Source: a virus. From it: DNA of 25,949 nt. The notes below the pieces were generated by a model. That model was not told the origin of the DNA, searched no databases, and saw nothing but the letters and a program-made list of their open reading frames with translations. The stretch lies in IMG/VR virus record IMGVR_UViG_3300010354_000558, positions 1-25,949 of that record; one strand, written 5' to 3'. A program made the position numbers and the translations under genes. Positions within the stretch are counted from its first letter, which is position 1. Each line of letters opens with the position of its first letter. Shown here in pieces: positions 1,734 to 25,949 of the stretch.

Positions 1734-1735
<2 letters not shown>
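1708..1735. terminator. Bidirectional rho-independent terminator between convergent genes
   Basis: A run of six A (1708-1713) is followed by GGGCGT (1714-1719), loop TGA, ACGCCC (1723-1728) and seven T (1729-1735). The G/C stem is six perfect pairs and the A and T runs extend it. Read on plus it ends the two-gene cassette (stop at 1687-1689). Read on minus it ends the long baseplate and fibre operon, whose last stop codon (1734-1736) overlaps the T run. Confidence 0.93.
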
Positions 1736-3194
<1,459 letters not shown>

Positions 3195-3195
3195 C

Positions 3196-6100
3196 TTAAC
3201 TTAGTCCTATAATTGGATTACCATCATCATCTGTTAATGCTTCCCCAGTGCCGTCATAAATTTCAAAATTGCCGCCGTAGTAATAAGCATCCGGCAGTTC
3301 TGCAGGCTTAGCCTTGAGGAATTTAGCTGGATTGCTATCACTGTCTAACAACGATTCTCCGTTATTCCAAAGTTTAGCAGCAGAAAATTCTTTCTTAACC
3401 ACTGTTAAGCGTACACCTTCTGCAACTCCTCCCTCAATATTAAGAGTAATCTGTTGCGTAGCTGTATTTAATGTAAATTCAGGATCTTTTCTCATCAATC
3501 CTCTATACACATATCCTGATATAGCATTCTCTTCTAGAGATTTTTCGTATACCCAAACTTGATTAGTAGCCGTCACAACGTAGGTAGTTCCTAGCACTGT
3601 TGTAACAGAAGGTAATCCCAATGTTGTAGCAGTGGTGTTTATCAGCGTTACACCGTCAACTATCCTTAATGATTGATTGTCGTAAGCAACTGCAGGATCT
3701 TGTACAAATCTATAACTCTTTTCTAATCTACGTCCGCCATAATAAACTTCTATTTGATTTGAGGGATTTACAAGATTAGATAGAATAATACCATTATTCA
3801 TCCATGTAGCTGTGGAATTTGTAGCTGTGTTTACATAGTAATAGTTGCTTGCAGTAGATATTGTATAAGTTTCAATTGATTCTTCTGTTAATAAACTTTG
3901 ACGTAAAATTCTGTCAGTAAATGGCACTGTCTGCGCTGTTCCTTGGTCAATTACCTTGGTTCCAATTTGATTGTACACTTTTGGTGCAGTACCTAGGGTT
4001 GCTCTTCTTAGCTGTGCTAGCACAGAATTTGCCACTACACTAATTGCAAATGTTGCGCTGGTTCCTACTCCGCTTGTTGTATTAAACGTAGACAATAAAG
4101 GTGCAGCATTTCCATTGTAAATACCGCCTTCAAATGTTAAACTGACTATCGCCCCAGAGCCGTTAGCGGTAACTGTTGCTACCAACGGTACAATCCAGTT
4201 TCCTCCCGAGAATGTAATTGTATCACCAGATTCAAAGGCATTGCCTGCATCTACAATTTCAATCTCATTAGCCAAACTATAAATTTTAAAGAATTCAATT
4301 CTTTCTCCGCTAATCATAACTGCACCAGGAATATTTGACTCAACAATTGGTCTTGTCAACACACTGGCATCTTCAACATAGATATAAGAATCTACTTCCG
4401 TAAACGCTGCTGTCAATTCAGTTGTGCTGTCTTTTGAAAGACGCTTATAGTTGTATCTATTGAAAATATCGTTGAATATTCTATAACCTAAAATATCTTC
4501 TGTAGTTTTATTGCTGGCAAAAGATCTAATTGTTATTAGGTCTCCGGGAGTTAAGTTATAAGTGTTGGTTAACTGTACTGTCATACCGTCATCTAACACT
4601 TCAAAGTCGTAGTAGTTAGCTAGAGGGACACCGTTTAAAGCCACCCATACGTAGCTTTCGTTTAGAATTGGTCGACTAATTTTAAACCTACCTGACGAAT
4701 TACCATCAAAAGTTTCAGTTCTCATGAATAAGTTATCATGAGTGTTGTAGGTAATAGTTTTTATTTCTCCCTTCCATTCTACGTTCCAACCTTCTGTTGC
4801 AACGGTAAATGATGTGGCATAGGGATTTCTCCTTTGCTGCGCTGCCGACGCGCACAGTAATAATTTTTGATTGTAAACATCGTATTCGTAATCTTGTTCG
4901 CCACCACCGCTTGCAGAACCAGGCTTGTTTAATATTGCAACAACATCACCTACAGATAATAAAGCTGTGTCAATTTTTACAATATTTGAAACAGTGTAAA
5001 GTATATAATCAAATCCTCTACGCAATTCTGAACCGTTTAGATATACACGAATTTCGTTTATATTCAACGGATTTTTTGTACCGTTACTGCGTTTGTTGGT
5101 AATAGCAAAACTGTTGTTTGAAGGATTATCAACCGAATAATAATTAATTTGCGGAGGAATAAGTTGTCTTCTAGATCCACTAAAATCATTTTTAAATTCA
5201 ATAATAGAATTCGCTAATTGCGGTTCAACCGTTCCAGTTACTGGTGCATCAGCAAAGATTATTTCCTGATAGCCTGAAATTACAATTTTACCTTCAACAA
5301 TAGTAGTTGTCGGATAATATGACGGGAACGACACAGAGGTATTAAGAGTTATTGTAGATGTAGTAGTACTAACAACTCCATAAAATCTATTTTCTAATAT
5401 ATCACCAACATTATTTCTAAAATAAATCGTAGTTACACCTGCTGTAATTCCCGCTACACTACTGACATTAGTTAATGTAAAATTAGATGCGGTTGCTACA
5501 GCTGAGAATGTAGCTACATAAGGTGTAACTGTTTTAATTTCTTCGCTAATCTCATTCCATAGCTGTTGCTCAGTACCAAAGAACCAACTACTCAGTACTG
5601 TTGTGCTAGTTGCAAGATTATAAATCTTAACCACGGCTCTTCTGTTTAACTCGTTTGCATATGTCAACGTATAATAGGCTGTGGAAGTTGATGTAGATGC
5701 AATGCTAACTCCATTAACTGTAACATAGGCTGACTTTACTGTGTCTATAGTTGATGCACTTTCTAACTCTGCCATAGTAACACCTTCTACTATAACAGTT
5801 TCTTTGTCAATAAATCCAGTTTGATTTGTGGTGCTGCCGCCGCCCATATCGATCACAGTGTAGGCCAATTTACCTATATAAGGTTGAGGTGCTACAATTA
5901 GTAAAGGCATGAGTCCCGATTCATTTTGCCAATCGATAGTAAATTGATTGGCTGCGGTAAATGAAGTATATGTACCTGTATAAGTTACATAATCAAAGAT
6001 ACAGGGAGTGTTGGGCTTAAGAACCTGTATAACTGTGCCGCTACTGATGGTTGAAACAACAGGATTGCTGATTATTATACCATTAGTACCGGTTAATCCT

Positions 6101-9100
6101 ATGATACTTGTACCGTCTTGTAAACCACCCATAGGATAGATAGAATTACCAACTTGGAATCCTGTTGTAGTTGATAGATATAGTGTAGATGTCAATGCTG
6201 CTGCAGTTGTAACAATAGTAGCAGTTACCACTGAATTGTCGTAAGTTACCATTACTGCTGCTGCATTAGGGGGAACCACAGTTAATTCTCTAGTAACCGT
6301 GGTATATGCCGTTATGATGTCTATATATGATGCAACAATGACCGGTGCTTGAATTGGAGCTTTGGTATAAACATTTATACCAATACTTTCGTGCATTTCA
6401 CCTGGGATTAATTCTTCTGGCCCGTAGCTACTATCGGGTGTTATAAATCCTGCTCCGTTTAATTCTATTGCACCTGTAGCCGTACTTACAACATAGCTAA
6501 AGTCGCCGCCAATATATTGTGTGTCTATACCTGAAGGATTTTGATTATAACTCCAAAATTCTATCTTAGAACCGGCGGGGATTGTTCCATTAACTATTTT
6601 ATTAACATTTATTGTTTTAGTTGCTGTCGTTACACTGTAAACTCTAGGTTCATCATAAACACCTGTGGTTACAAAATAGGTGCCAGTTGAAGAAATTACA
6701 TTCACAGTTTGTCCTGCAACTATTCCGCTAACACTGTGTAACACCAATGCTGTCAGTGTGCTAGAAACTGTTGTAGATACTGCTGTAGAAGTTGTAAATG
6801 TGTAGCTATCTATTTCATCTTCGTAACCGGCATCGTCAAATCCAACAACTCCATCACTCCATCTTGTGTTATAATTTAAGGATAATCCTTCAACTGATAA
6901 TTTACTATATTCTAAACCTGTCATTAATTGGGCTAGTTCCTTGCCAGGCATTTCTGCAGTTGGGGAATAGTAATGCAATATTCTATCAATAGCTGTTAAT
7001 AGTTCTGTACTCTTAGTGTATTCTATTGTAACAAGCTGTTCAATCTCAGGAACAACTTCAGTAAATCTTAACTTACAAAATTTCTTTGAATAACCATTTA
7101 CATCTGAAGTATAATATAAAATTTCGTATTCAGATGAAAGAATTTTATTGTTGTCTAAGAATACGCTTATTAATTCGTCCTGAGGTTGCGCTACCCAAGA
7201 CAAAATAAATTCTGATTTTAATCCGTCTCCTACAAAGTTATCAATTACTGAAAGGTCTTCTAAGTCTTGACCTCTTGATACTCTGTCGTATTTCATTGTA
7301 ATAATATTAGATCTTATGGTAGTGGTAGAACCATAATTTTGTGCCCAAGACTTCCAAGGCCATTGTGACAAATAAGAACTGCCGCTGGTTACTGGGATTA
7401 CCGCATTTTGATCTTCATCAAACACTGGAGGTAGATCAAAGTCTGTAGTATATGTTCTGCTGTTATCTACGAGATTATATTTTGTAGTAAAACTTCTAAT
7501 CTGAGTGTGATAGGGTTTAGCTTCTGCTACATAATCTTCATAAAATTTTGTATCTGCTAGCTTATACACAGGAATCTGTGTTAGTGTTCCTGCAAAATTT
7601 GTTACACTTATAAATGAAGTTTTAAATGCCCAGTCTAAAAACATCTGTTCAGACAACGCATATCTTACACATTTAAAGAATGAAAGATTCCAGTATTTCT
7701 TTAATTCTCCTATAAAGATATCTTTCTTTAGTGCATCTAAAATATATTGCAATTCTAAATCAGGTGCTTGAGCGAACAGTGTTTGATCAAACGCATTTGC
7801 ATCATAGCCTAAATTATTATTGGTAAGGTCCCATAGATTGTTGCTAAGTTGAATTGTACCGTTTTCGCTATAAACTACATCATAATTTGCATCAAACGTT
7901 CCTAATCCCGTGGTTATTTTTTGTAGAATTAGATAATTTCCCAATCCATTGTCTTTGACTTTTACATAGTCGCCGGCATCTGGAAAAATACTATCTAGAT
8001 CTGTTGCTTCATTAACAACATACAGTACTTCTTTGAACTTATCATAAGAAGATGATATCCAATCAACGTACTGCCAATAGAGAGGAGTATTATATAACTG
8101 TGTTTTTGATCTAACCCAAGTACCTTGCACTTCAGTTAGTGTTAATAGATTCCAATCACTTGGATCAAACTGTGTGTTTGAGTCAATATAATATTTTGAA
8201 CTGTAGAAATTATTGTTATATTTTACTTTTTGTCCGTAGAGATATTTTTTGTCTAGTGTCCACGTAATAACATCTGCATTATTCCATACATACTTTGTCC
8301 ATTTTCCATTATAGGTTGAATCTGCTAATACTAATACAGTATAAGGTCTTACAGTTAATAACGGCGCAGTTCCAAAAGCCTTTCCAGGATACGCTATCGA
8401 TGCTGCAGTAACCTGCCCTAACTCGTTTATCTCTGTAGTAATTTTTGCATTATGTAAATTATTTTCAATTTCAACTGTGGGTGCTATACGATATCCATAA
8501 CCTGAATTATCGATAGAAACTGCTACAATCTTTCCATTGCTTACAATGCAAGATAACATAGCAGGCTCTATTCCATCAGTATCGATTGCGTCTAAATCTG
8601 TTTCATCTTCAACAATTTGATCAAACTCGCCGCTGATTTCTAAAGGTGTTGGATCTTGTTTGTTTAAATTTTCAAAACTGTAGACACCGGTTATTCTTTG
8701 ATCAATTAAAATACCGTTGACATACTCTATCAAATTTCTAAGTGCTGCCCATCTATCCTTAAACATACTCTGTCTTGGGCGTATTTCAATACCGTATTTT
8801 TCTCTCTTGGAGAGAGTTGGATCGGGAACTAAGTTTCCTAACTTGTCTGTACCTTTCAAACTGTCTAACATTTTTTGTTCTAATGCCGCAGGAGGACCCT
8901 GAGTTTCTGATCCTTCCTGTAGTATCAACCATTCAGTGTGCCTTGGGGTAGGATTATCGATTGAATTATAAACTACATTTAGACTGACCTTATCACCTAC
9001 CAATAAGTTTGAACAATTTGCCACCGCTAGAGCATTAGCTGACAGTATTTCAATATATCTTTCACCTTGCAATTTTGGATTTTCTATAAGTTTACTGACT

Positions 9101-12100
9101 TGGAATCCACTTATTCTACGATTTTTTGCTGCAGGTACAATAAGCGGATTCTTTACCCAGTAGTAATAATAGTTTATAAAATTACCACTGTTAGAATCGT
9201 ATACCTGTTTTACAGCCAAAGTAGAATTGTCTACAAACTTAGGTGTACCACTCACTCCCTGTGACAGACCTTCTTGTGATCTTGCTAAGTTAACCCACTG
9301 TGATGGTAAGAAAGTGGTTTTGACCCATTCGTAAACGTCTATAGTAGAACCTGGAAACGGTGTTCCCCAATAATTTTTTCTATATTCTAGTTCTCCCTGT
9401 TCGTACCAAGGATACTTGACAGTGCTAAGATCCCACCACAATTCACCCACATGTTCATCTAACCAATTGGTGTTTAGATTTACATTAACTGCAGATCCTC
9501 CTATAGAATACACTGCAGGATCATAGGCCATTTTGTAAGAAATTTCTTGATCTGCTATTCCTAATACCTTGCCCTTAAGAGGATCAACCACATCAAGATA
9601 GTCAATAACTTCATCCTTGTCTGTGTTTATTAATGATACCTTACTTACAGAATCAACACTGATTAAGTCATCTTGATGGCGCAGCAATTTCCAACTGTCT
9701 GCTGTTTGATCAATTTTGTAAAATTGATGGAATGCGCTGATTACTGAGGAGTTATTTTCGTTCACCACTGCTGGCGCACCAACGAACAAATTGTTATTTT
9801 TCAGTGCAACACTATATCCATAATTTGTACCAGAATTAATGTTCACTGGAGATAATTCGTCTGCTGCTCTAAACAAAGTATTTTTTCTATTATAGATATA
9901 TACAGATCCAGAAAATGCTACTCTGTCTAAGAAATTAGTTGAGTCAACATCGTAACTAGTTTCGCTTAGAGAAAAGTCGCTGTTGAAATCGTTGTCGTAC
10001 TCTTCAGTTGTAGCTAGGTCTAGTTCAGTTCTATCATCAAACGACAGCGGTATACGTCTGTTTGTACCTAAAGCTGAAATTACTAGCTCTTCTTCATCTT
10101 CACTAATATCTAAGGATTGTCCAAACTTCATACCTACACCGGGTACAGGATTAGAAATAACCTGTGTCAATGTAAAGTTTTGAGTTGATGATTCCCTATA
10201 ATATACAGCAACTTTTCCGTATCCCTGACTAGATGTTCTTGCGTTAGGTGCAGCAACAAATATGTATGAACCGCTAGGGCTAATTGAAATAGAGGATCCA
10301 AAATTTGAATTGTTTTCAAACACACCTTGTATAGTTTGACTTATAAGGGTGCCTGTACCTGTGTAGATAGCAATTAATCCCTTGCCATTAGCAAATCCTG
10401 GAGCACCTATAACAAATACACCCCTTCCTCTATCTGTTCCTGCAAGAGACTGACCCCATTGACTGCCCTGTTCAGTACTAAGAACAACATTCACCGTTAG
10501 CCCGGTTCCTGTATTAGTTGCGGTAGTTGAAACTGAATTCAACACTGAACCTGGCAGCGCAGAGAAGATTACAGAATTGTCTAAAGGATTAGAAAATGAT
10601 CTTACTGAACCATTCGCGTTAACTTTTGTAATTCTTGCTACCAAAGGCTTAGAAGCAGTTGCAGGTGAGACATAGACTAAATCATCAACCTTGTAATTTG
10701 TTCCAGAGCTTACAATTTCTAATCTTTGTACTGTAGAAGATGTTAAAATAATTGTGGATGTTGAAATTACAGTGCCGCTGGAATTTAATAAGTGCTTGTA
10801 AACCGTACCGGTTCCCAACGTTTGCGTATACGGAGCCCCAACAAATAATGTTTTATAATGTCCTAGAGGATTACTGACATGTAAACTAGAACCATATCGT
10901 TCATAACTTACAGAGTTAGGACTTTTAATAACATTGACTACCTGTTCTTCTAGAGTATCCGGTGCTATAGCACTAATTTTTACTATTCCCTGTTCAATTA
11001 ATGAACCACTAGGGATTGCCGCAGCCGGAATAGTTATTTTACTGGCCAATGGGCCGCCGGCAAACAGCAGACCGTAACCGCTTTCATTGTATTCTGTAGC
11101 ATCATAAAACAAAGAGTTACCAAAACCGCTAGGCAACGACTCGTCGTAATATGTCGCTGTGCTTACATTATTAATTCCATATCTAAACAATAAACTGCTA
11201 GAAGCTACTCCTGGTTTATAGACAAAAACATTTCCATAATTAAAATTAGATTGCACATATCCTGGATTTCCCACCATTAATAATGTGCTGTCTTTTTGTT
11301 TGTTAATGTTAAATCCTAGACTTTGCTCGACAGGGGACGTTGCAGATTGTATTGTATAATTTTTATAATTTTTAACTTTTTGATAGACTGCCCAACGATT
11401 GTTATCATCATGATCTACCCAAATTTTTGCATTTCTTGGAAATCCTAACAGAACACTATCTTCTGGTAGGTCATCAAAATTATTAAATCTACTATTAGTA
11501 AATTTAAAAATTAGTCCTGGAAGAGATTCAATTGTGTCTGTAACCGCTGTGGTTGTTGAAATTACTGAAAAGGTATCTCTATCTACAACAGAATTAATCT
11601 TATAAATTCCATTTACTAAAGGATCAAATTGCTCAACGCTTACAATTTCTTCAGCGGAGAATCCGTGTGGTTTATCTGTAGTAAAGTTTAATACATCTGC
11701 GTTTAGAGAATCTAATTCTACTTTAACTAATTTTACTGCCGCTAATCTTTTTCTAAGAACACTCCAATCGTTTATCTTTGTATTTGCTAACCAGATTGTT
11801 TGTCCAGTCTTGATAACATCTGTGCTGGTAAATGCTAATAAAGCATTTTCGTTAAAGGCATTAAATTCAACATCATCAAATCTAGCATAACCCGCATTCT
11901 GTACAGAAAATACATCGTTATAGTCTGCGTCAGTTGTTACAAAAGTCTGTGTTGTAGAATAATTTAAAGGTTTAGCTAGTAAATCTGTAGATTTAACAGA
12001 TATTCTTAAATTGGTGACTGTAGAAACTGTATTAGTAAATTCTATAATTTGCGGATTGTCATAGAAAGAGCCCTCTTGTACAGTAAATTCTATTTCTTTT

Positions 12101-15100
12101 CGAGAAGAATATGAACCGTAGTAACCCATACGGAACGCCCATTCTTCATTATAATCTAATTTTGCGTTTAGAGTTTGTACAGTTGCTCTTTGTAACTTTG
12201 TTATAGAATTTTTTGTGCCTTTTTCTTTGATGAAACCTTGATAGAACTTATATTGAGCAATTGGATCTGCAAAAATGTTGTTTAGATACACTCTAGGAGT
12301 GTAACCAACTAAATGCTGTGCAGCCTTTTGCTGACCTTCGTCAAAGTTACTAATATCCAAACTATAGAAATCTTCAAATTGACTTATTTTATAATCAAAG
12401 TTTGGTATTAAAGAAGCTACCGGTTTCTTTCCTAGCAGTCGCCAATCGTCAAAATTGAAGGCCAATGTACCAACAATATTTTTATTAGCGGCATAATAAT
12501 TTCCGTTAAACTTTACAACATCTTCAAATTTATAATCCTTATACTGTTTCCAGTCGCTTATAATTGCTGTATCATATACAAAGCCTGGACTGAAGTAATC
12601 TCCGTTCCAATTGCTGGTTCTAAAACCAGACACTTTCATTCTCTGTTGACGATAGCCTGTATCTAAATTTAATATTGAATCATTGAATATTGTTGTATTA
12701 TTGAAAACAATAGCATGTTCTTTTTGCACAGAATATAGTCTTGCAAAATAAATTCCTCTATCAGCAGATATACATTTTATAGTACACTTACCTTCATCTC
12801 TTACCACATTCAAAAATTTCTGTGGCATTGCCAACCCGCTGGCTTCTAGAATATTATATTCATAAAAACTATTAAAAATATTATCTACAACTGAATCAGT
12901 AAATTTAACTGTCAGTTCGTTAGCAAATGGACTGAGTGCAATAACACTGTTAGTTTGCCAATTTTGTGTTGTCCAATATAAAAATTCTTTGGCTGTAAAA
13001 TTCCAATCTAAGGTAGATTGTAAGTCATTGTTAAATTCGTTAAATTCAAATCCTTGATCAATCAACCATTGTCCGTATCCCACAATCAAATCATAAACTT
13101 CTTGAGTGGTGTTATAAACTGTTCCGTAGGGAATGATTACCGTAGAATTTTTATCAAATATTTCTGCTGCCTGTACTGTGGTTCCGCCTCTAATAGGTAG
13201 TTCTGGAACTCTTTGAAAATATTGATCTTCAAAATTACTGCCACTTCTATGACTTACAGTTGTTATATAAAAATTGTTGTTATACTGTACATACTGTCCT
13301 TTTTGATAGAATACACCAACAGGTGCTGTTGAAGCACTGGTAGTATCGGTAGTAGCAGCTTCTGCTCCACCTGTTTCATTACCTGCGGTCCATTTAACAA
13401 ACTTTTCTGCGACCCCTCCCACAGTTATTGTAACTGTGTCTTGATTGCGAATAGGTGTGTAGACAGTAAAGTAGGGACTTTGATCGTCTAATCCCTTTAC
13501 TAGAAATTTATTATCTTCTTTCTGTACTACAACACCCGATATAGAAGTCTTACGAATAGGATTGCTGGTGTTTAAAATTAACTTGTAATCTTCTGGTTGC
13601 AATACAGAACCAGCGGCTGTGCTTAATGGATCAAAGGCATCTATACTGACTTGGAACTGACTTTTATCGATAAATCCACCAACTTTATAGAACAAACTAA
13701 TATCTGCATTGGCTAAATCCTCAGATAACTCGGTGTTATAACTGAATGATCTCTGTCTACCGGCTTCACTTACAAACACACTGTACCCCGATGTAGCATA
13801 ATCATTTACACCTTGCACAGGCATTTGCCTTAGATCAAGTAAAATATTATCTTGGCCGTAAATCCATTGTCCAGAAAGATTTTGTGTAAGTCTTATTGGA
13901 TCGTAAAATAAAGATGCATAGGTTGCCGGCTTGCATAGAGCCATAATTTTTTGTACAATAAATGGCCAATGACTGCTCTTTCTCCACGCTGCTTCAGCCG
14001 GACCCCAATCGTTAAATTCCCAGTTGGCCTGAACGTTGGAGATAGTGAGATTTATTACAAATGTATCAGGATCTTTCAAATCACCGCTGCTGTCAACAGG
14101 AATAAAACTTGCTAGCTGACTTCTAGCGTATACAGTGTCTATGCCCTCTCTAGATCCTTGTCTAATGCGGCCAAGTCTTAGATCTGTCCACAACTTTGTA
14201 TTTGTGCTTAGATAAGGAGCTGCTCCATATTCTTCTTCCCACCAGCTGGGCTGAACAGTGAATCCCAACATTCTCCAAGGGTACAAGTCTGGTCTGTCAG
14301 TGTCATAGAGATAGGTATAAAGCCATCTCCAAGATCCGTGAGTAAGAACATTTAACGGTTGAATATACCCGCCCTTGTAATTCCAAGTGTAAGAATTAGC
14401 ACTGTCGTAAGAACTATTGGTTTTCCAATCTACGCCATTTGTGCTTATCCAACGGAGGAAATCTCCTTGAACAATATTATTGATGTCATTAACTGAAAAA
14501 TCAGTGGTTCTAAATGCTCCAGGAATTAGAGATTGATAATCTAAAATATCTTTTCTGTACTGACCTTTAATATTATTATAGATTCTTTTTTCTAATTCTA
14601 ATATTACAGCATCTCTATAGTCTCCAAACGCTACTGTAATGCTGCCATCATGTCCTTGTATTACGTCTACAGGTGTTACATAAGAATCATCTTCAAACAT
14701 CATCGGTTCATACTTAGGATATAAACCCAATTTAGATGGCGTGGATGGAATATAGCATCCCTTAGTATCAGTGTAGTCTTTGATTACTATGCGATCGTTG
14801 AGATAAAGGCCAACATTAATTCTTACATAAAAATCATTAGTTAAAAATTCGTAATCCTTACCATAAACTAGTTGCTCATCGTTTATGTATACTAACACAC
14901 TTCTAAAACTTATATCATTGAGATTATACTCACTTGATATTGGATAGGTATCTACCGTTGTATCATCAACAACATAAACAGTTTCCTTAAAATTGTCTCC
15001 GTAGGCAACCATATCTGACAAGAAATATGGGAAGGATTGATTTTTACTTAAATTGATAGTTTTTAACGCTTCGTCAACTGCTCTTACAGGATCAGTTTGA

Positions 15101-16980
15101 ATGTCTAAATCTGTAATTTGTTTTATAAAGGCGAGTTTGAATAGATTATATTGATCAGCAGCTTTTGTAACTGCATCAATAATATTGTGATCTTTTTTGC
15201 CAATAAACATCAACGCAAAAGACAATGGATTGTCGCTAGTGATTAATCTTGTTTCGTTACTAGCGGTACTGATATGGTCAATTATGTCACTACGTGTAAG
15301 ACTAGCTATTGGACCATTAAATGGATTATTTGTTAAACCCAAAGGCAGATTATAAAATTCAGATGATGTAATCGCACTATAAGTTTTAGTAATTGCATTG
15401 TTAGTTACTACAGATTTCCAAGCATTTGCGTAACTGTTGTCTTTTTTAATATAGGCAACCGATGATGAAATTTCTGTAGATGCATTAGCAGCGTCTGATA
15501 GCGTAATTGTTTCTGCTGTAAGATAATTTTTAAACAGATAACTACCAACACCTACACTGTTCCTGTAGTTGAGAGGAAATCCTAAAACTGTATCATTTGG
15601 TCCTGTACCTAAGTCATAACCAAAAACTTTGTTACCTTTAAAATCTGAATTATAAAAATCTTGATCCGAATAGCTATTTCCGTCTTTGTCAAAAAGATCA
15701 AACAACGGAGGTTGATTTAATTTATTGTGTTGCTGTGAAAATTTCCAAGCAGTTCCAGTATACCACCAACTGGTGCCGCCGTAATTGGTTCCGTAATTTA
15801 CATAGGTATTATCGCCAACCGCCGGTGATTCAACTTCTACCAGTGTCAGTCTTTGTTCACCGTTTATGGTTACAAAATTAACTTCATAAATTTTGCTTCT
15901 TACTGTAAGATCGGTTTCAGCAGTAAAAATAATTCTATAACCTTGCTGCAATGCTACACCGTCAGCGAAATGTCCAGCCGAACCTTCAACGACACTAAAG
16001 GCGTCTACGGTAACTGTGTCAACTACATCGATAGGCGCAAGTCCGTTACTACCAAAATTATACAACTTGATATTTGCATCAAATTCAATAATAGGTCTTT
16101 GAGCTCTTAGCTTACTGGGATAATATGGCTGAACATCGTTAACGCTGGAGCTAACTTCAATTACATCTTTATGTACCCATCTATTATATCTTGTCCAAGG
16201 ATTTAAATCATTGCTGGATCTATTAATAGTGATATAATCTGGAACGAGAGGCAGTTGCTTGTAGCTGTCAAAAGGATATTCATCAAACAGAGACTGATCA
16301 AAACTGTCATCATAGATATCTGCTATGTTTTCTGAAACTTTTAATACCGCATCATCTACTAGTTTAATACTACTACCAACTCCTTCAACCCAATACACTT
16401 TATTTTGATAAGAGATAGGTGATGCATTACCAGTAAATCTTATCTTCATTCCGTTTAGCAATGGCTGATTTAAAGTGGGGATAGTGTAATCGGTTTGCCC
16501 GATAATAGACGTAGTTACTGTAACGGTGTTTGCTATGTCTATTGTTGGAGGACCGTTGACTAACCAATAGTATTCTTGATACTTTTCAAATTTGCGTGTG
16601 TCAATATGTAAATCATAAGAATGATAATGTGTTCTAAATAACTTGTCAAAATTTTCAACATTACCACCGCTTAGACTTATATCGTTAATTAAATCATTGA
16701 TTCCAACAACATCCTTTACATTTCCTTCTTCATCTTTAACAATCAAAGAAGGAGTTAATTGATAATTGGCTCGCAGATCGCTGTTTTCAGTTACGTAACT
16801 ATCGCTGCTTTGATAACTTTTAACTTGAGTAGATGTAGATGATCCAATATAAGCATCTAATCTTTCTAGTTCAGGCTTTTGTATCAGCTGATCGAGAGTG
16901 CTGGCAAGAAATTTTGCGTTCTTACCTGTCTGTAAAAACTCAGGTAAAAACTTAACACTTTTTATAATCTTTTCTGCCAT
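3196..16980 (-). CDS. Giant (4594-aa) baseplate- or tail-associated structural protein with FG-GAP-like propeller
   Basis: One unbroken frame of 4594 residues, starting two bases after the gp6 stop. The N-terminus (about 118-146) carries [16 protein letters not shown] and [11 protein letters not shown], which I associate with very large structural proteins of aquatic myoviruses. Residues about 1884-2424 hold seven FG-GAP-like repeats (Y/F-G-x-S ... hGAP ... V-x-V-Y). Three G-x-G-Y-type beta modules lie near 2085-2165, 2809-2880 and 4236-4318. At least five 'V-x-V-x-x-N-G ... D-Y' modules lie near 694, 3267, 3974, 4107 and 4407. Conserved-looking blocks include [11 protein letters not shown] (about 2730), [16 protein letters not shown] (about 3145) and [15 protein letters not shown] (about 3340). 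No signal peptide, membrane segment or protease motif is evident. T4 has genes 7 to 10 after gene 6; here this single protein follows gp6, so a peripheral wedge or fibre-network role is inferred. Virion location is likely; exact function unknown. Confidence 0.75.
9705..11335 (-). other. Region encoding a seven-repeat FG-GAP-like beta-propeller domain
   Basis: Within the giant protein (residues about 1882-2426) seven units share an N-terminal 'G-x-S' strand, a central hydrophobic strand ending in GAP or a variant, and a closing V-x-V-Y strand. Markers in order are [21 protein letters not shown] with LFVGAP, QWGQSL with FVIGAPG, NFGSSI with IFVAAPN, KFGQSL with LVISALG, and NYGYSV with LFVGAP. 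This is the layout of integrin-alpha-type FG-GAP propellers. The DxDxDG calcium loop typical of integrins is not clear in any unit. A G-x-Y-type beta module is inserted between units 3 and 4. Confidence 0.75.
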
Positions 16981-16982
16981 CT

Positions 16983-19900
16983 TTAATTTCCAGCACTAGT
17001 GATAATATTTTCTGACTGTAATTGACTGGCAGTGACTGCATCAATTATGTCTATTTGAGAAACTGTAGCTCCATTTATAAAAACTTCGTTGCTTAGACAT
17101 GTTACTTCATATAGACTGCCAAAACTGTTTGGATAATTTGGAACTATAATAAAATTTGTGATGTCCGGGGTTAGCAGATTCATCACATAGGTAGATAATT
17201 CACTAAAGTAAAATGATTGGCCAAAGTTCCAATTTTGCAGTGCAAAAAAATTGTTAATTGCTGTAAGAATTTTGCTCTTTAATGCACTGTCACTTAACAG
17301 ACTACTGCTGTTTCTCACTGCCTTAAATCTAGCTCTCAATGTAGTAGGAGCTTTGTCACCAAACAAAATTTTGTATCTTGCTGGCTGAAAAACTATTTCA
17401 TCGCTGATTGTTTTGATAGCATTGAGCTTAGACAGATACTGTTTTTCTAAAGCTGAAGTAGTTGGTGGAAGAGGCTCATTGCCTACTCCTGTTGACAACC
17501 AGTATCTATAAGCAGTGTCATAAGTTGCTGTCATTAGATAAACATCTATGATATTTGATTTGCTTGGATCAATTCTTCTTTCTTCACCGCTATTATGTAC
17601 ATATTGAAATTTTATAGCATCTCTTCCGGGGTAAGCGAGATACGATGAAGCTGTAGTGTTATAAACAAATTCGTCTGTGTCTTCGTTGTAGATATTAACA
17701 ACATCTTCATTGTAGAAATAATAAAAATAACCATCAAATTTTTCAGCAGAAGGAACATCTGTCTCAGATCCATATATAATGAAATCTAAACTAGACACAG
17801 GTTGTGTGGTTTCTCCGTCCTCTTGAATTTGAAAGAATACATAACTGCTTGTTGAAACTAGGTTAGTATAAGCATCAGGGTCTGAAATTTCACCGCTGTT
17901 GTCGCTGTCATAAAAACTTATCTTAATTTTTGACGGATTAACATAACCGTCAACTTCAACTACATTACCATCAATCTGCCATAGGTAGTCTTTGTCTAAT
18001 CCTATGCTAGTAGAAGTACTGATAGAATTTACAGACAGTACCTTAATTTGATCTTTTACAATAGTGTTTGTATAGTAGTCATAGTTAATGTTTGTTGGAT
18101 CTGTATAAAAAGCAGTTTCCTTTGCACTTTCAAACGTGAATTGTGCATATCTATATCTAACTTTGTAACTAGATCCTTGCCATTCAAATGCTATCAACCA
18201 ACTAGCATCATTGTTTAGTCCAGAACCATCACCTTGGTTTACAAGACTAAAATCGCTAGTTAGATCAAGATTGGTTTCGCTGATAAACGACCATTCTCTA
18301 GAAAGTGTATCAAACTTTAAACCAAAGTTTTTTTGTGTTAAACAAATATTAACTATTTCATTTTCAAAAACATATTTGAATGAATTTAAAAATTGCGGTA
18401 AAATTTCTACAGGTATAGCGTCACTATCTACAACTGTGGATAAGACAATTGGCCCCGTGCCGTCTTCTAGTAATCCTAAACCAGTATTAGATCCATCGCC
18501 TATTACATTCTTAACTGCTGCCCATAGATACTGACTACCATTTGATCCTTTCACAGCACTCAGTGTGCCGTTGGGTTTAAAATACTTTTTGCTAGCATCA
18601 TACCTAGCATCAGTAGTTGGCAGCATACCTGGGGGAATAAATTTGATTAAAGATCCAGGCTTGGCATATTTTAATGAATTAGAGACAAATATACCTGTGC
18701 TAACTGGTCCTTCACTGGTTTCAAAGTATCCTGTGCAGGAAATTGCGTTGGTGTTTGCCTTTACCCAAGTTAGTTCTAATGAATTTAAATCAGGACGAGG
18801 ATACTGATCAATATAAAAAGAACGCAGAGATTGTAGTTTTACAATTGACGCTAGGGTAGTCTTTACAAAAACCCAAATTTGATTTTTGTTTGCAAAACTA
18901 AAATCTATTTGAGCTTCTTCTATATCTTTGTAAAGTATACCGTCAGAGGCAAAAATATTTGTAGAACTATATTTTCCGCTCACATCGGATAATTCAAAAT
19001 ATCTACTTACGCCGCTGGTAACTCTTGCTACACTCTTGACTTTTAAAATATCGCTGCCTAAATTTAAAGGCGCAATATTGTAATCTTCCGCAGTGACCAT
19101 TCTATTTTGTGTATAGAAAGACTGAGGAGCTTTCAATTGAATATCTGCATTGGATTCTGTTGGAGCACTATTAGATACAGAATACTGCAAATTCATTGTC
19201 AAAGTTAGTACGTGTTCTCTTCCTGCTTTGTTCCTGTAAGGAATTTTAATAATCACACCGCCCATCTGCTGCGGTGTAATAACGTAACTCAAACCATTGC
19301 TCTGTCTATAAAATAGACCAAACGTGCCTTGAGGCAAATTACCAAAGCTACCATCTGCAAAATTTAAATCAATCTGATCATTGTCTCTTGTTGAAACACT
19401 GTAGATATTTCTGTCATTGGCATCTATGCTGTTGTAAATTACACTACTACCAGTGATTGCTGGCACTTTGTTCCATAGCGTGGAATAGTTGCCGCTGGAA
19501 TCCAATTGCCACAACCATACATCAGAGTCGTTAATGTTTGAAATATTAACTCCAATTAATTCATTAGCTACAGGATTTTGAACAGTGAAATTTGAAAAGC
19601 CTAGCTGACCCTGTTTAAAATAAACAAAGAAACCTGTGTTAGGGCTAGAGTTGCCTTGGTTATCTGACTGATAGAGTAAATTAAAACTTTTACCTGGCTT
19701 TGGGGTATCTTCTTGCACTGCATTGTCTACAAAAGTAGAAGCTACAATCTCAAAATTCATTGCTGTACCGTTGATATTTTTTGTGAAAGCAAATACCGGT
19801 ACATCTGTATTAGCCGAATCAATCAAATATTTTTCTGTTACTATGCCGGAGATTGTGGCTCTATCGTTGGGTATTCCAAAACTAAAGTTTGAGAACAAAG

Positions 19901-20387
19901 AAGAATTAACAATAGAAATAAATTGTTCGTACCAGTTGTTATTGGTAGGATCATTCCACAACACCGTGCTGTTTGCTAAGTTATTGCCCGCACTGTCAAA
20001 CACTGAATCTGTGGTAGATATTGCTGATAGCTTTAGCATACCTGTAGCCGCAGTGTTTCTCTTTGGTACGTAGCTTATAAGCTGTGCTAAACGCAGAATA
20101 CTGTCTCTACGTTGTGCTGTTTCTAGAAAATTTTCTCTAGCATTAAGGTCAATTCTAAAGCTTAGATTTTGTCCTAAGTACGCAATTAAATCTACCAGCG
20201 CAACATATTCGCTTGAATCGATATAGTCGTTGAAATCTTCAGGATAATTTTCCTGCAAATAGCTGATTAGTATTCGTCTTAGTGTATCAAAGTCGTAGCT
20301 TTGAAACTCTGCATTTGGAAAAGATGCGTAGATCTTTTTCCAATCCTCTGTAACTAATAGCCTAGAATTTGTTGTTGGAATGGTCAT
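16983..20387 (-). CDS. 6: Baseplate wedge subunit, T4 gp6-like
   Basis: 1134 residues. The N-terminal 110 residues match the gp6 pattern well: an EYVALVDLIAYLGQNLSFRI helix, then DLNARENFLETAQRRDSILR and LAQLISYVPKRNTAATG. A second typical block near residues 425-480 has TAEDYNIAPLNLGSDILKVK and SGVSRYFELSDVSGKYSSTN. The C-terminal block near 1040-1115 has FFALQNWNFGQSFYFSEL. In T4, gp6 dimers clamp neighbouring wedges into a ring around the hub and bind gp7, gp25 and gp53. T4 gp6 is about 660 residues, so this copy carries some 470 extra, mostly between about residues 480 and 1000, a pattern I associate with aquatic T4-like phages. It starts 43 bases after gp25, with no Shine-Dalgarno site but an AATAAATA box at 20403-20410. 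Confidence 0.93.
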   Translation of the reverse strand: MTIPTTNSRLLVTEDWKKIYASFPNAEFQSYDFDTLRRILISYLQENYPEDFNDYIDSSEYVALVDLIAYLGQNLSFRIDLNARENFLETAQRRDSILRLAQLISYVPKRNTAATGMLKLSAISTTDSVFDSAGNNLANSTVLWNDPTNNNWYEQFISIVNSSLFSNFSFGIPNDRATISGIVTEKYLIDSANTDVPVFAFTKNINGTAMNFEIVASTFVDNAVQEDTPKPGKSFNLLYQSDNQGNSSPNTGFFVYFKQGQLGFSNFTVQNPVANELIGVNISNINDSDVWLWQLDSSGNYSTLWNKVPAITGSSVIYNSIDANDRNIYSVSTRDNDQIDLNFADGSFGNLPQGTFGLFYRQSNGLSYVITPQQMGGVIIKIPYRNKAGREHVLTLTMNLQYSVSNSAPTESNADIQLKAPQSFYTQNRMVTAEDYNIAPLNLGSDILKVKSVARVTSGVSRYFELSDVSGKYSSTNIFASDGILYKDIEEAQIDFSFANKNQIWVFVKTTLASIVKLQSLRSFYIDQYPRPDLNSLELTWVKANTNAISCTGYFETSEGPVSTGIFVSNSLKYAKPGSLIKFIPPGMLPTTDARYDASKKYFKPNGTLSAVKGSNGSQYLWAAVKNVIGDGSNTGLGLLEDGTGPIVLSTVVDSDAIPVEILPQFLNSFKYVFENEIVNICLTQKNFGLKFDTLSREWSFISETNLDLTSDFSLVNQGDGSGLNNDASWLIAFEWQGSSYKVRYRYAQFTFESAKETAFYTDPTNINYDYYTNTIVKDQIKVLSVNSISTSTSIGLDKDYLWQIDGNVVEVDGYVNPSKIKISFYDSDNSGEISDPDAYTNLVSTSSYVFFQIQEDGETTQPVSSLDFIIYGSETDVPSAEKFDGYFYYFYNEDVVNIYNEDTDEFVYNTTASSYLAYPGRDAIKFQYVHNSGEERRIDPSKSNIIDVYLMTATYDTAYRYWLSTGVGNEPLPPTTSALEKQYLSKLNAIKTISDEIVFQPARYKILFGDKAPTTLRARFKAVRNSSSLLSDSALKSKILTAINNFFALQNWNFGQSFYFSELSTYVMNLLTPDITNFIIVPNYPNSFGSLYEVTCLSNEVFINGATVSQIDIIDAVTASQLQSENIITSAGN

Positions 20388-20430: not shown

Positions 20431-20871
20431 TTATACCGTAGCAATACCAATTTCTTGATTGAATTTAATTTTCATGCTTGCAGATTCATTAGTTGCTTTT
20501 AATACCAGTGTCAACTCTAAAATGTATCCGTTACTGTATTCAGTTAGATCCATCTGTGTAGGAACTACCCTAGAATCTGCTGTGCATACTGCCTTTATAT
20601 CTGCAACTAGAACATCCCTAGTTTCAGCAGTAAGAGGCTCCATAAGTAAATCCCAGATTCTGCTACCAAAGTTTGGATTCATTACTCTAGTGCCTTTTCT
20701 AGTGTTGAAATGATTGAGAATATCCTGTTTGATTAGATCCAGGTCAAATAGTTTAGCTGTAGGATTGTCCTCATTTAGACTTGAAAATCCTTTATATAAA
20801 TGCGACTGTTGTAGAACCGGCTCTTGATAGATAGCGTTGGCGCTGGTTACTGTAAGTGATTTATAAGGCAT
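20431..20871 (-). CDS. 25: Baseplate wedge subunit gp25 (TssE/gp25 family)
   Basis: 146 residues, close to the 132 of T4 gp25. The N-terminal 40 residues lead into DLDLIKQDILNHFNTRKGTR, followed by the family hallmark VMNPNFGSRIWDLLMEPLT at about residues 64-82, with the Glu-Pro that contacts the sheath-initiating handshake region in this family. Strands YILELTLVLKATNESASMKI lie near the C-terminus. The old label 'gp25 lysozyme' is not supported: no catalytic pattern is visible, and the family is known as a structural wedge component shared with type VI secretion TssE. It lies between gp5 and gp6, 18 bases after the gp5 stop. No Shine-Dalgarno site is seen, but AATAAATA is only five bases before the start. 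Confidence 0.95.
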   Translation of the reverse strand: MPYKSLTVTSANAIYQEPVLQQSHLYKGFSSLNEDNPTAKLFDLDLIKQDILNHFNTRKGTRVMNPNFGSRIWDLLMEPLTAETRDVLVADIKAVCTADSRVVPTQMDLTEYSNGYILELTLVLKATNESASMKIKFNQEIGIATV

Positions 20872-20889: not shown

Positions 20890-23046
20890 TTATACCACCG
20901 GTTTACCTCCAGCTTTCTTAAATTCCGCAAGCAAGGTTTTTGCTTGCTGCATGGGTTGGTTCTTGTAATTTGCTCCCGGTAGACTGGCCCAGGTTTTTTT
21001 GTTTCTATCCAACGCTTCGTAAAATCTACCTTGCTTGATTAGGTCGATAGAATTGTTTCTAGCTAAAAGGAAAATACAAGCTTTATCCTGATTTGCAGGA
21101 CCAAAATCTGTTAGACCAAGAGCTGTTTTGCATTCGTCCCAAGTATCCGTTAAAAATTGATATGCTCCGGCTGCACTAGAAGGAATACCGTTTGCTCTTC
21201 TTACTTCTCTCGGATGATCCTTAAAGCCTAGGGCGATGTTATCAACTTCTTTACCGTAGACATTTTTAATTTTTGCTGATTTAATATCAAATTCTCTATC
21301 AGGCCATTGTCTTTGATACCCTATTGGTCCTGTAGTTCCTTCAGCAAATCGTATCATATACAAAAACGCTTGTAGATTATCTTGCTCTTGATTTCCAGTT
21401 GATCTAGGAGGTGTACCCTGTGTGTTTGGAGGCAGTTTAAAAATTTCTGTGATCTTTTTAGCAGCCTCTACACTTAATTTTTTATAAGAAGCACTTCCTG
21501 GATTGTTGTTTAAATTTACTGCATTGAACTCGGTTGGATTTACGCTTTCGTGCTGATCATAAGGTTCGTGCGTGGGAACTCTTGTCATTATTGTAAGTAA
21601 ATCTTCAACCTTATAGAAATTATTTTCCCACGATCCGTAAACGGACCTATTGGGTAAACTGAATCTAGCTAGAGGAGATACCGCTGTGGTTGATGCATCA
21701 CCGGCTGTAGATGTTGGAGTTGCAGGAACAGCATTTTGATGTATTTGACCTCCAGAGGTCATAAAAATATCTACGTTGGATTTTAAATGAATGTTTTCTG
21801 CGGTTTCTAAAATATCTGCATCAGAATATAAACTGAGATTTCCGTTACTACTTAATTTTAAGGTTGCATTATTGCTTTTTAAATTAAAACTGTCATCGGC
21901 TTCAAAATTTACAATAGAATTTGATTTTAGATTCATACCAGATTCTGCATATACAGACAGCGAATTATTACTTTGTATATTGAAATCTAACCCGCTGAGT
22001 AAATTAAAATCAGCTCCGCTTTCTATTTGTGTAGACATGTTTGAAGAAATGTTTACATTTCCGCCAGCTTCTAAATTTATATTTCTATCTGCTCTAAAAT
22101 TTAAATCTTGCTCAGAATGAATAGATACGCTGTCTGCTGCATAGATATCAATTTTACCCTGTGATGTAAGTTCAATCCAGGCTGTGCCTTTAGCATTACC
22201 GATGTAAATTAAATCTTTGGTATTGTGTAAAAGAATCTGATGTCCGGTCCTTGTTCTTATACGAACTAATTCATTTTCTCCATCAATATCCCCATCATCC
22301 ATTACAAAAGTTGATCCGCCCAATCTGCTTACAGGTGACGGTGTTGTTGCCAGCTTGTTTAATGGTTTCTTTGGTCCGTTTTTATCTAAGGGGCCCGGCG
22401 TGCTGATTCCAAAAACATAGCTGGGAATTTCTCGCCTTGCGCTGCTAGTAGTAGTGCCTCTAGCATCATCTAACAATAGACCTTGTTCTAATAATCTATC
22501 TGCAAAAGGATGCACAGGTTTGGCCAGCTTGTCTACCAATGGCCCTTTTTCACCCGTTCTAGTAGATTTTAAAGGCTCTGCTACAGGTAGGTTACTGGTC
22601 TTATATTTTGCTAGTTGCGAAGCAGTCATTGCTGTGTTTTTTGTTGCAGCAATGCCGGGCACCATAAAATTCTGTTGTTCATCCCATAAAAATCCAATTA
22701 TATATCCTTGGTTAAAATCAGAATTGGCGAATGCAACCAGCACCCTAGTTCCGATATCTGGAGGAATCATCCACATGCCGTAGCTTTTCTGTACATCGTC
22801 GTATTTGTTTTCGTTAGTGCCTTCATACAATACGTTGGTGTTTCCTGCGAAAGGACTGACATATCTAACTACATAGGTTTGTTCTTTGATATTAGGGTCG
22901 CCAGCAATTAGAAATTTTACAGAAACCTCAACCATACCTTGCTTGGTAGGATCAAGGTGATTGGTAATTATGCCTTCGTAAATGTAAGAAGGCAAATGTG
23001 AAGGACTTAAACCTCGTTGCAGTTGTGGAGCTTGCGCTGCTGACAT
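20890..23046 (-). CDS. 5: Baseplate hub/spike protein gp5-like with C-terminal lambda-R-type lytic transglycosylase
   Basis: 718 residues. The N-terminal part (about 15-140) is the gp5/VgrG-like OB-fold region, with YIYEGIITNHLDPTKQGMVE and later GFLWDEQQN. Residues about 243-437 form the spike beta-helix, visible as short alternating repeats such as VSIHSEQDLNFRADRNINL and EAGGNVNISS. The last 160 residues match lambda endolysin R in order: FLYMIRFAEGTTG, DHPREVRR, SSAAGAYQFLTDTWD, LGLTDFGPANQDKA and WASLPGANY. Glu569 corresponds to catalytic Glu19 of lambda R, an anhydro-forming transglycosylase (GH104). In T4 gp5 the lytic domain is a T4-type lysozyme placed between OB fold and beta-helix; here it is another family, placed last. 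AGGA lies nine bases before the start. It punctures the cell envelope at injection. Confidence 0.93.
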   Translation of the reverse strand: MSAAQAPQLQRGLSPSHLPSYIYEGIITNHLDPTKQGMVEVSVKFLIAGDPNIKEQTYVVRYVSPFAGNTNVLYEGTNENKYDDVQKSYGMWMIPPDIGTRVLVAFANSDFNQGYIIGFLWDEQQNFMVPGIAATKNTAMTASQLAKYKTSNLPVAEPLKSTRTGEKGPLVDKLAKPVHPFADRLLEQGLLLDDARGTTTSSARREIPSYVFGISTPGPLDKNGPKKPLNKLATTPSPVSRLGGSTFVMDDGDIDGENELVRIRTRTGHQILLHNTKDLIYIGNAKGTAWIELTSQGKIDIYAADSVSIHSEQDLNFRADRNINLEAGGNVNISSNMSTQIESGADFNLLSGLDFNIQSNNSLSVYAESGMNLKSNSIVNFEADDSFNLKSNNATLKLSSNGNLSLYSDADILETAENIHLKSNVDIFMTSGGQIHQNAVPATPTSTAGDASTTAVSPLARFSLPNRSVYGSWENNFYKVEDLLTIMTRVPTHEPYDQHESVNPTEFNAVNLNNNPGSASYKKLSVEAAKKITEIFKLPPNTQGTPPRSTGNQEQDNLQAFLYMIRFAEGTTGPIGYQRQWPDREFDIKSAKIKNVYGKEVDNIALGFKDHPREVRRANGIPSSAAGAYQFLTDTWDECKTALGLTDFGPANQDKACIFLLARNNSIDLIKQGRFYEALDRNKKTWASLPGANYKNQPMQQAKTLLAEFKKAGGKPVV

Positions 23047-25675: not shown

Positions 25676-25949
25676 TTAAATTCCCAATGCCGATCTTAAT
25701 ACACTCAACTTTGGCAAATATATGCTGACTCCTGCCTGCATGTCAAAGACTGGATCTTTGAGAATTGAAGGATTACGTACAGAAAACACCCACCATAGAG
25801 AAGAATCGTTATAAAGTTTGTATGCTAATAGGTCTGGCCTATTTTCAAATTCCTTTTGTATTGTGTATTTTGTATCGTCTGCCTGTGCGGGAAAGTTTCT
25901 AAAGGTAGCAACATCAAGATAACCTTTGGCTAATGATGTTGTAAAGTAA
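25676..25949 (-). CDS. 53: Baseplate wedge protein gp53-like, C-terminal part (runs off the window)
   Basis: The last 90 residues and TAA stop are present; the start lies beyond base 25949. The visible part begins YFTTSLAKGYLDVATFRNFP and contains TIQKEFENRPDLLAYKLYND, then SSLWWVFSVRNPSILKDPV, then AGVSIYLPK. This 'RPDLLAYKLY ... WWVFxxRNP ... DPV ... G..I.LP' layout is the LysM-like fold signature I associate with gp53 of aquatic T4-like phages. In T4, gp53 strengthens wedge contacts and is needed to join six wedges round the hub. Its stop codon is one base from the start of the hub gene, which implies translational coupling. I translated this end by hand. Confidence 0.78.
   Translation of the reverse strand, partial: YFTTSLAKGYLDVATFRNFPAQADDTKYTIQKEFENRPDLLAYKLYNDSSLWWVFSVRNPSILKDPVFDMQAGVSIYLPKLSVLRSALGI

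Follow-up and report, generated by a model that had tools for sequence, protein, structure and literature searches.

Sequence profile, predicted fold and blade count strongly support a seven-bladed FG-GAP propeller with the fold of the integrin alpha head at about residues 1870-2433 of a giant protein encoded in a phage baseplate operon. The DNA analysed here (the window) is an IMG/VR virus record of 25,949 bases, and all features given below lie on its minus strand. As shown by computation, the propeller is an insertion into the turn of a small beta-hairpin of the giant protein. Integrin-like propellers are familiar mainly from animal cells, where they form adhesion heads, and from surface proteins of bacteria. 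One is now placed in a tail baseplate protein of large phages belonging to a widespread group, in which it appears to have had a single origin. Propellers suspected of a receptor role are already known in phages; what is new is the FG-GAP type, its carriage by a giant protein in the position of gp7 and its insertion into a hairpin. No paper on FG-GAP in phage tails was found in the open-access literature searched.

Seven FG-GAP-like blades and their predicted fold

The propeller proper comprises residues 1871-2427 (9700..11370), as delimited with AlphaFold2, VIA-align and hmmsearch, and together with its flanking stem strands it spans 9673-11397 of the window. The preliminary description, made by reading the sequence, had proposed seven consecutive units at residues 1882-2426 (9703-11337), and these were recovered by the unit HMM count and by AlphaFold2. 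On the basis of unit HMMs and the AlphaFold2 model, blade 1 covers residues 1885-1934 (11179..11328), blade 2 residues 1949-2019 (10924..11136), blade 3 residues 2025-2077 (10750..10908), blade 4 residues 2171-2218 (10327..10470), blade 5 residues 2223-2276 (10153..10314), blade 6, which has a long 2-3 loop, residues 2283-2376 (9853..10134) and blade 7 residues 2383-2427 (9700..9834). The units start at G1889, G1954, G2030, G2176, G2228, G2287 and G2388. An 'hGAP' landmark had also been described for them: a GAP-like turn does occur in the units, whereas the exact GAP is found in only three of the seven (at 2048, 2192 and 2401), the remaining four reading GNP, GGP, AAP and ALG. In terms of a looser FG/GAP-like pattern, an aromatic residue or leucine followed by G is present in all seven units and the P in six.

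For each unit, an HMM was built from the remaining six unit types as they occur in the homologues (alignment A2, 54 propeller homologues), and the score of the unit was compared with those of 1000 shuffles. Units 1, 3, 4, 5, 6 and 7 of the window outscore all 1000. Unit 2, the most degenerate in the window, is not significant alone in this test (54 of 1000 shuffles reach its score); the key G and P of this unit are nevertheless kept in 54/54 family members. With one HMM built from all units, the window yields exactly seven. Pfam FG-GAP_2 reaches its cut-off with one unit of the window protein (23.7 versus 23 bits) and, with E allowed up to 0.1, matches 52 of the 54 homologues (best 2.9e-14). 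Since this single marginal match is all that Pfam gives for the window protein, the name FG-GAP is easily overlooked there. The homologues mostly keep the seven units: among 311 related loci the counts obtained with the all-unit HMM cluster at 0 or 6-7, with 83 loci lacking any unit. Five loci score eight units; in the one that was inspected (L102) an eighth blade was rejected, the seventh unit being split by an insert.

Structure prediction and a profile search, two of the checks that the preliminary description had put forward, gave concordant results. AlphaFold2, run on residues 1838-2445 with the 54-member alignment, returned a beta-propeller (mean pLDDT 80.6, pTM 0.81, most blade strands at or above 90) with four strands per blade, matching closed integrin propellers. 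Among the best Foldseek matches listed against the PDB, every one is an integrin alpha chain (lowest E 1.9e-13). With VIA-align 2 the best match is integrin alpha-M (Z 39.1, 3.1 A over 370 residues, 17% identity, model residues 33-597), and integrin heads overall give Z 36-39 over 360-384 residues at 16-19% identity. By an independent sequence route, hmmsearch with the 54-homologue profile against PDB sequences retrieved integrin alpha-4 at 2.4e-16, along with numerous further integrins. Only the family profile brought this out; a single-sequence PDB search had yielded nothing but an acetyltransferase match, which was rejected as due to chance. An N-terminal strand at residues 1872-1878 (11347..11367, by DSSP) probably closes blade 7 in the model as in integrins, because it starts where integrin residue 1 aligns (the alignment begins at model residue 33).

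Shared with the integrin alpha head (Pfam FG-GAP PF01839 and FG-GAP_2 PF14312; alpha-M, alpha-V and alpha-4) are the seven blades of four strands each, the FG of strand 1, the (G)AP that follows strand 2 and the N-terminal strand that aligns from integrin residue 1. A strict integrin-type propeller has in every blade a cage motif, namely an aromatic residue followed by G, P 13-20 residues further on and then G within 2-15 residues, and in several blades a DxDxDG calcium loop between strands 1 and 2 (PMC3192720, PMC8023676). In the window, by contrast, the strict cage motif is found in four of the seven blades (1, 3, 4 and 5); in blades 2 and 6 no P stands at the required spacing, and in blade 7 the following G is missing. 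The lack of an evident DxDxDG loop had been noted before, and indeed there is none in the window propeller, and similar strings occur in 3/54 homologues. For these two reasons the domain is an integrin-like FG-GAP propeller and not a strict integrin-type domain, so that of the earlier 'integrin-type' label the seven-bladed, integrin-like part stands on profile, fold and count and the strict part does not. It further differs from the integrin alpha head in being an insert of a phage baseplate protein, not a secreted membrane receptor, and in having no partner beta chain.

The separate beta module earlier described between blades 3 and 4 is real. This lineage-specific insert in the blade 3-4 loop (residues 2080-2169, 10474..10743) has a low-confidence predicted fold (pLDDT 29-67) and is detected by sequence only in the window and its near relative L002. 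It weakly resembles residues 4234-4319 of the same giant protein (i-E 0.0012). Sub-threshold matches to Pfam Gp18_dom_I were obtained both for the insert and for a stretch preceding the scaffold block in phage Atu_ph07. For the insert, identity with Gp18_dom_I was rejected, the match being below the cut-off; the stretches concerned may represent a recurrent phage beta module.

Insertion into a hairpin of a giant baseplate-operon protein

The carrier of the propeller is a single ORF of 4594 aa (3196..16980) that matches the virion structural protein family PHROG 10938 at E 8.6e-288. In the order of minus-strand transcription, the genes are a gp53-like wedge protein truncated by the window end (25676..25948; PHROG 7145, E 4.6e-22), an 873-aa virion protein, a gp5-like baseplate hub/tail lysozyme (20890..23046; PHROG 13211, Phage_base_V), a gp25-like wedge protein (20431..20871; Pfam GPW_gp25, E 3.7e-9), a gp6-like wedge protein of 1134 aa (16983..20387; PHROG 10646, E 4.4e-285), the giant protein and, immediately downstream, a collagen-like fibre protein (1734..3194; Pfam Collagen 4.4e-12, PHROG tail fibre families). 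In the latter, a (GPT)n protein, a cupredoxin-looking stretch beginning HPLWIQT lies between two collagen blocks. T4 baseplate genes run 53-5-...-6-7 and the window order is 53-5-25-6-[giant]; given this match over 53-5-25-6, the giant protein occupies the position of gene 7. Nothing significant linked it to T4 gp7 in searches with a single sequence, with a seven-member gp7 profile, with the scaffold block and by profile-profile comparison, and 'gp7-like' therefore describes gene position only. The gp53, hub/lysozyme, gp25 and gp6 neighbours, together with the mass-spectrometry note in the record of the PA5oct homologue, which marks it as a virion protein, support the earlier suggestion that the propeller is carried in the baseplate.

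Cultured jumbo phage relatives of the giant protein include PA5oct gp355 (3857 aa), Atu_ph07 gp180 (4449 aa), RaK2 gp465 (3326 aa), SCTP-2 gp140 (3807 aa) and others. According to tblastn and blastp against the PA5oct, RaK2, Atu_ph07 and SCTP-2 members of PHROG 10938, homology extends across the N-terminal half and a conserved scaffold block directly after the propeller (residues 2437-2765, 8686..9672, alignment A1). The scaffold block is 27-39% identical to those of the four cultured jumbo phages and 47-62% identical in the 80 nearest virus contigs. When profiles of the N-terminal half and of the scaffold block were searched against the PDB, the matches were either weak ones of carbohydrate-binding type or due to chance. 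A CBM5/12-like stretch at about residues 1222-1248 (13237-13317) scores 22.1 versus 26.2 bits, below the Pfam cut-off; W/Y-rich stretches resembling CBM5/12 were noticed by eye near residues 1497-1540 and 2895-2935, and a Pseudomonas phage homologue of the giant protein is annotated as chitin-binding type-3.

The propeller lies between two stem strands, RWAVYQK (residues 1862-1868, 11377..11397) and DSWKLLRHQ (residues 2428-2436, 9673..9699), which are also present in propeller-less relatives. In the window the resulting pattern W-x-V-Y ... W-x-x-x-R-x-Q has its strands about 560 residues apart. The stem is well conserved, with W1863 kept in 53, W2430 in 48 and R2434 in 50 of the 54 members. 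The giants of PA5oct, RaK2, Atu_ph07 and SCTP-2 have the same position after gp6 and homologous flanks, but none has a propeller at the insertion site of the window. PA5oct has there the bare hairpin KVWIDSINSDNDWAVAVVSGSTITNIRSRQNLVDS (WAV-AVVSGSTITNI-RSRQNLVDS) and SCTP-2 the bare hairpin NRWAVYYFNSGKWNLDYKEQDVID (WAVY-YFNSG-KWNLDYKEQDVID), as do many uncultured relatives, such as AWTVYKRAQGRWTAFRQQEYKVD in L174 and YWAVYSRSTSGWDQIRRQNRKVD in L184. Atu_ph07 differs, with a 1500-aa stretch of other modules ahead of the scaffold block and no propeller. In the model of the propeller-less L174 protein (pLDDT 84.8) the two stem strands are adjacent (residues 185-190 and 193-199). This clean comparison with propeller-less proteins makes the propeller a defined, removable domain of the baseplate giant. 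Domains plugged into hairpins and loops would partly explain the 4000-5000 residue size of these baseplate proteins.

The stem is preceded by a small beta domain, at residues 66-147 of the L174 model and about residues 1745-1835 of the window protein (11476..11748, equivalence aligned by eye). In L174 it has an E1 FCCH-like fold (VIA-align Z 10.5 to Uba6 and 8.3 to LKA1 gp49), a fold that phage tailspikes and endosialidases also contain (Z 6.6-8.3 to the L174 domain). This domain dominated the fold search with the L174 scaffold model, the remainder of which covers about residues 150-575.

Distribution and evolutionary history

From 158 scaffold blocks a tree was computed (338 columns, quick method), the domain being coded as present where four or more units were detected. 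All 115 rows with at least four units fall in one clade of 121 rows (SH-aLRT 99), the remaining rows of which are four with partial counts and two without a propeller. Presence and absence require two changes on the 158-row tree, best read from these sequences as one gain and one loss, and the putative loss (L186 and L189) sits on a long branch. The pattern shown by this computation is one of vertical inheritance of the propeller within a single clade of mostly uncultured phages, not of swapping. The loci were picked by similarity (best 80 per scan), so the domain frequencies are not unbiased. Clade contigs reach 322-328 kb (L019, L112), consistent with jumbo genomes. No cultured phage with a propeller in its homologue of the giant protein was found by tblastn with the propellers of three members against 50,697 phage records; the sole match was rejected as a different protein, of Sinorhizobium phage Phosso.

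Several loci deserve mention on their own account. The propeller-less giant protein of L186 has a GDSL/SGNH hydrolase domain upstream of the scaffold (L186:5883-8018, Pfam 1.2e-10), i.e. an enzyme built into a baseplate protein. In L136 (2842-4977) a long array of Gly/Thr-rich repeats of ~48 residues interrupts the propeller region between blades. Eight marine-looking MAG contigs (L320-L327; Rickettsiales, Pelagibacter, Porticoccaceae and other bins) contain the scaffold block; these are probably phage contigs co-binned with bacteria and give no reliable hint of the host.

Loop variation, selection and possible role

In integrins, the 4-1 and 2-3 loops by convention form the ligand face of the propeller and the 1-2 and 3-4 loops its calcium face. 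The top and bottom faces were assigned here by analogy with this topology. Across the 54 members, loop-length variation is concentrated on the ligand (top) face (14 top versus 14 bottom loops, Mann-Whitney p = 0.0003). The largest inserts (98, 136 and 159 residues) are all on this face, and its largest loops range from 7 to 159 residues between members; the insert 2080-2169 of the window falls there too. Such one-sided variation plausibly fits a receptor- or partner-binding head, if the analogy holds. The exception to the variable ligand face is the 2-3 loop of blade 6 (residues 2341-2350, 9931..9960), with the consensus TTFDxxSTxF and with D2344 and T2348 kept in 54/54 members. Compared with its 93% relative L002, the window has a dN/dS of 0.044 in the first propeller part (residues 1870-2079) and of 0.009 in the second (residues 2170-2365), both as low as in the scaffold, and of 0.094 in the insert. 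In this comparison the propeller is under strong purifying selection with no sign of diversifying selection. A rapidly evolving receptor domain is not supported by these values, and the strong constraint, together with the vertical inheritance, speaks against a receptor domain that is swapped rapidly.

We see about an even chance that the propeller is an exposed binding head, acting as an accessory adhesin that engages the host surface. It would project from the baseplate on its two-strand stem and serve as a binding platform, with the variable face of 4-1 and 2-3 loops exposed like the ligand side in integrins and the invariant blade 6 loop supplying a fixed contact. Its most likely task would be to engage a host polysaccharide or surface protein once the tail nears the cell, as an accessory adhesin and not as the main host-range fibre. 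Phage precedents, by analogy, count in favour of an adhesin. Propellers with a suspected receptor role are those of phi11 Gp45, PRD1 P2 and PhiKZ gp131C (PMC4901313). By its description, PhiKZ gp131C is a seven-bladed propeller at the baseplate periphery of a jumbo phage, proposed to bind a receptor (PDB 4GBF; PMC4901313); it is, however, the C-terminal domain of its own protein, whereas the window propeller is a hairpin insert in a giant protein at the gp7 position. The platform of the phi11 receptor-binding protein Gp45 has five blades, is trimeric and best matches glutamine cyclotransferase (PMC4901313). It shares with the window a propeller in the baseplate, in its case as a host-recognition device, but Gp45 is a separate trimeric protein and the window propeller a seven-bladed insert. 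Also in favour of an adhesin are modules for binding or catalysis at other places in the protein family (the GDSL domain of L186 at 1.2e-10 and the CBM5/12-like stretch of the window, under its cut-off). Against it stand the dN/dS values of 0.044 and 0.009 and the vertical inheritance, unlike many host-range domains, which are swapped between phages.

Purifying selection and single vertical inheritance would fit a conserved structural partner equally well. The propeller may bind another baseplate or fibre protein, the adjacent collagen-like fibre or a neighbouring wedge being candidates, and so hold the baseplate together or attach fibres; we give this docking within the virion a substantial chance, though one short of even. 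Its very low dN/dS, its persistence in almost every member of a deep clade, the invariance of TTFDxxSTxF across 54 members and the collagen-like fibre gene directly downstream all point in this direction, and propellers commonly act as scaffolds for macromolecular interactions (PMC8023676). Yet top-face loops of 7-159 residues would be unexpected over the whole face of a conserved internal interface, and relatives with the same scaffold manage without a propeller. Exposed variable loops thus favour the accessory adhesin, and constraint, vertical inheritance and the invariant loop a fixed partner in the virion.

A passive decoration or spacer, i.e. a tolerated insertion without specific ligand that adds only bulk or stability, is improbable: relatives have only a short hairpin turn at the insertion point, and the giant protein takes many other inserts, e.g. 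the repeat arrays of L136, but purifying selection, seven units kept across the clade and an invariant loop misfit a neutral spacer. That the propeller is itself catalytic, for example degrading capsule or slime as a glycosidase or lyase, is very improbable, since, although other seven-bladed propellers are enzymes and L186 has a true enzyme domain, its closest matches, by fold as well as by profile, are integrin heads throughout, which have no enzymatic function, and no invariant acidic or nucleophilic cluster was seen in the propeller besides D2344 of the blade 6 loop.

Returning to the accessory adhesin, a bolder and rather doubtful proposal is that the hairpin acts as a socket which, in one jumbo phage lineage, received an integrin-type adhesion head. 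A wedge, not a fibre, would then have the recognition head, with ligand-side loops diversifying by insertion on fixed blades.

Similar predicted folds were found in a viral structure library among giant viruses of eukaryotes and a few phage proteins. The 'Hemagglutinin protein' A0A2L0UZX4 of Atu_ph07 (Foldseek E 1.6e-14) and H6WG31 of cyanophage S-TIM5 (E 6.2e-14) are predicted to share the fold of the window propeller; unlike this insert, they are stand-alone proteins of about 400 residues in their models.
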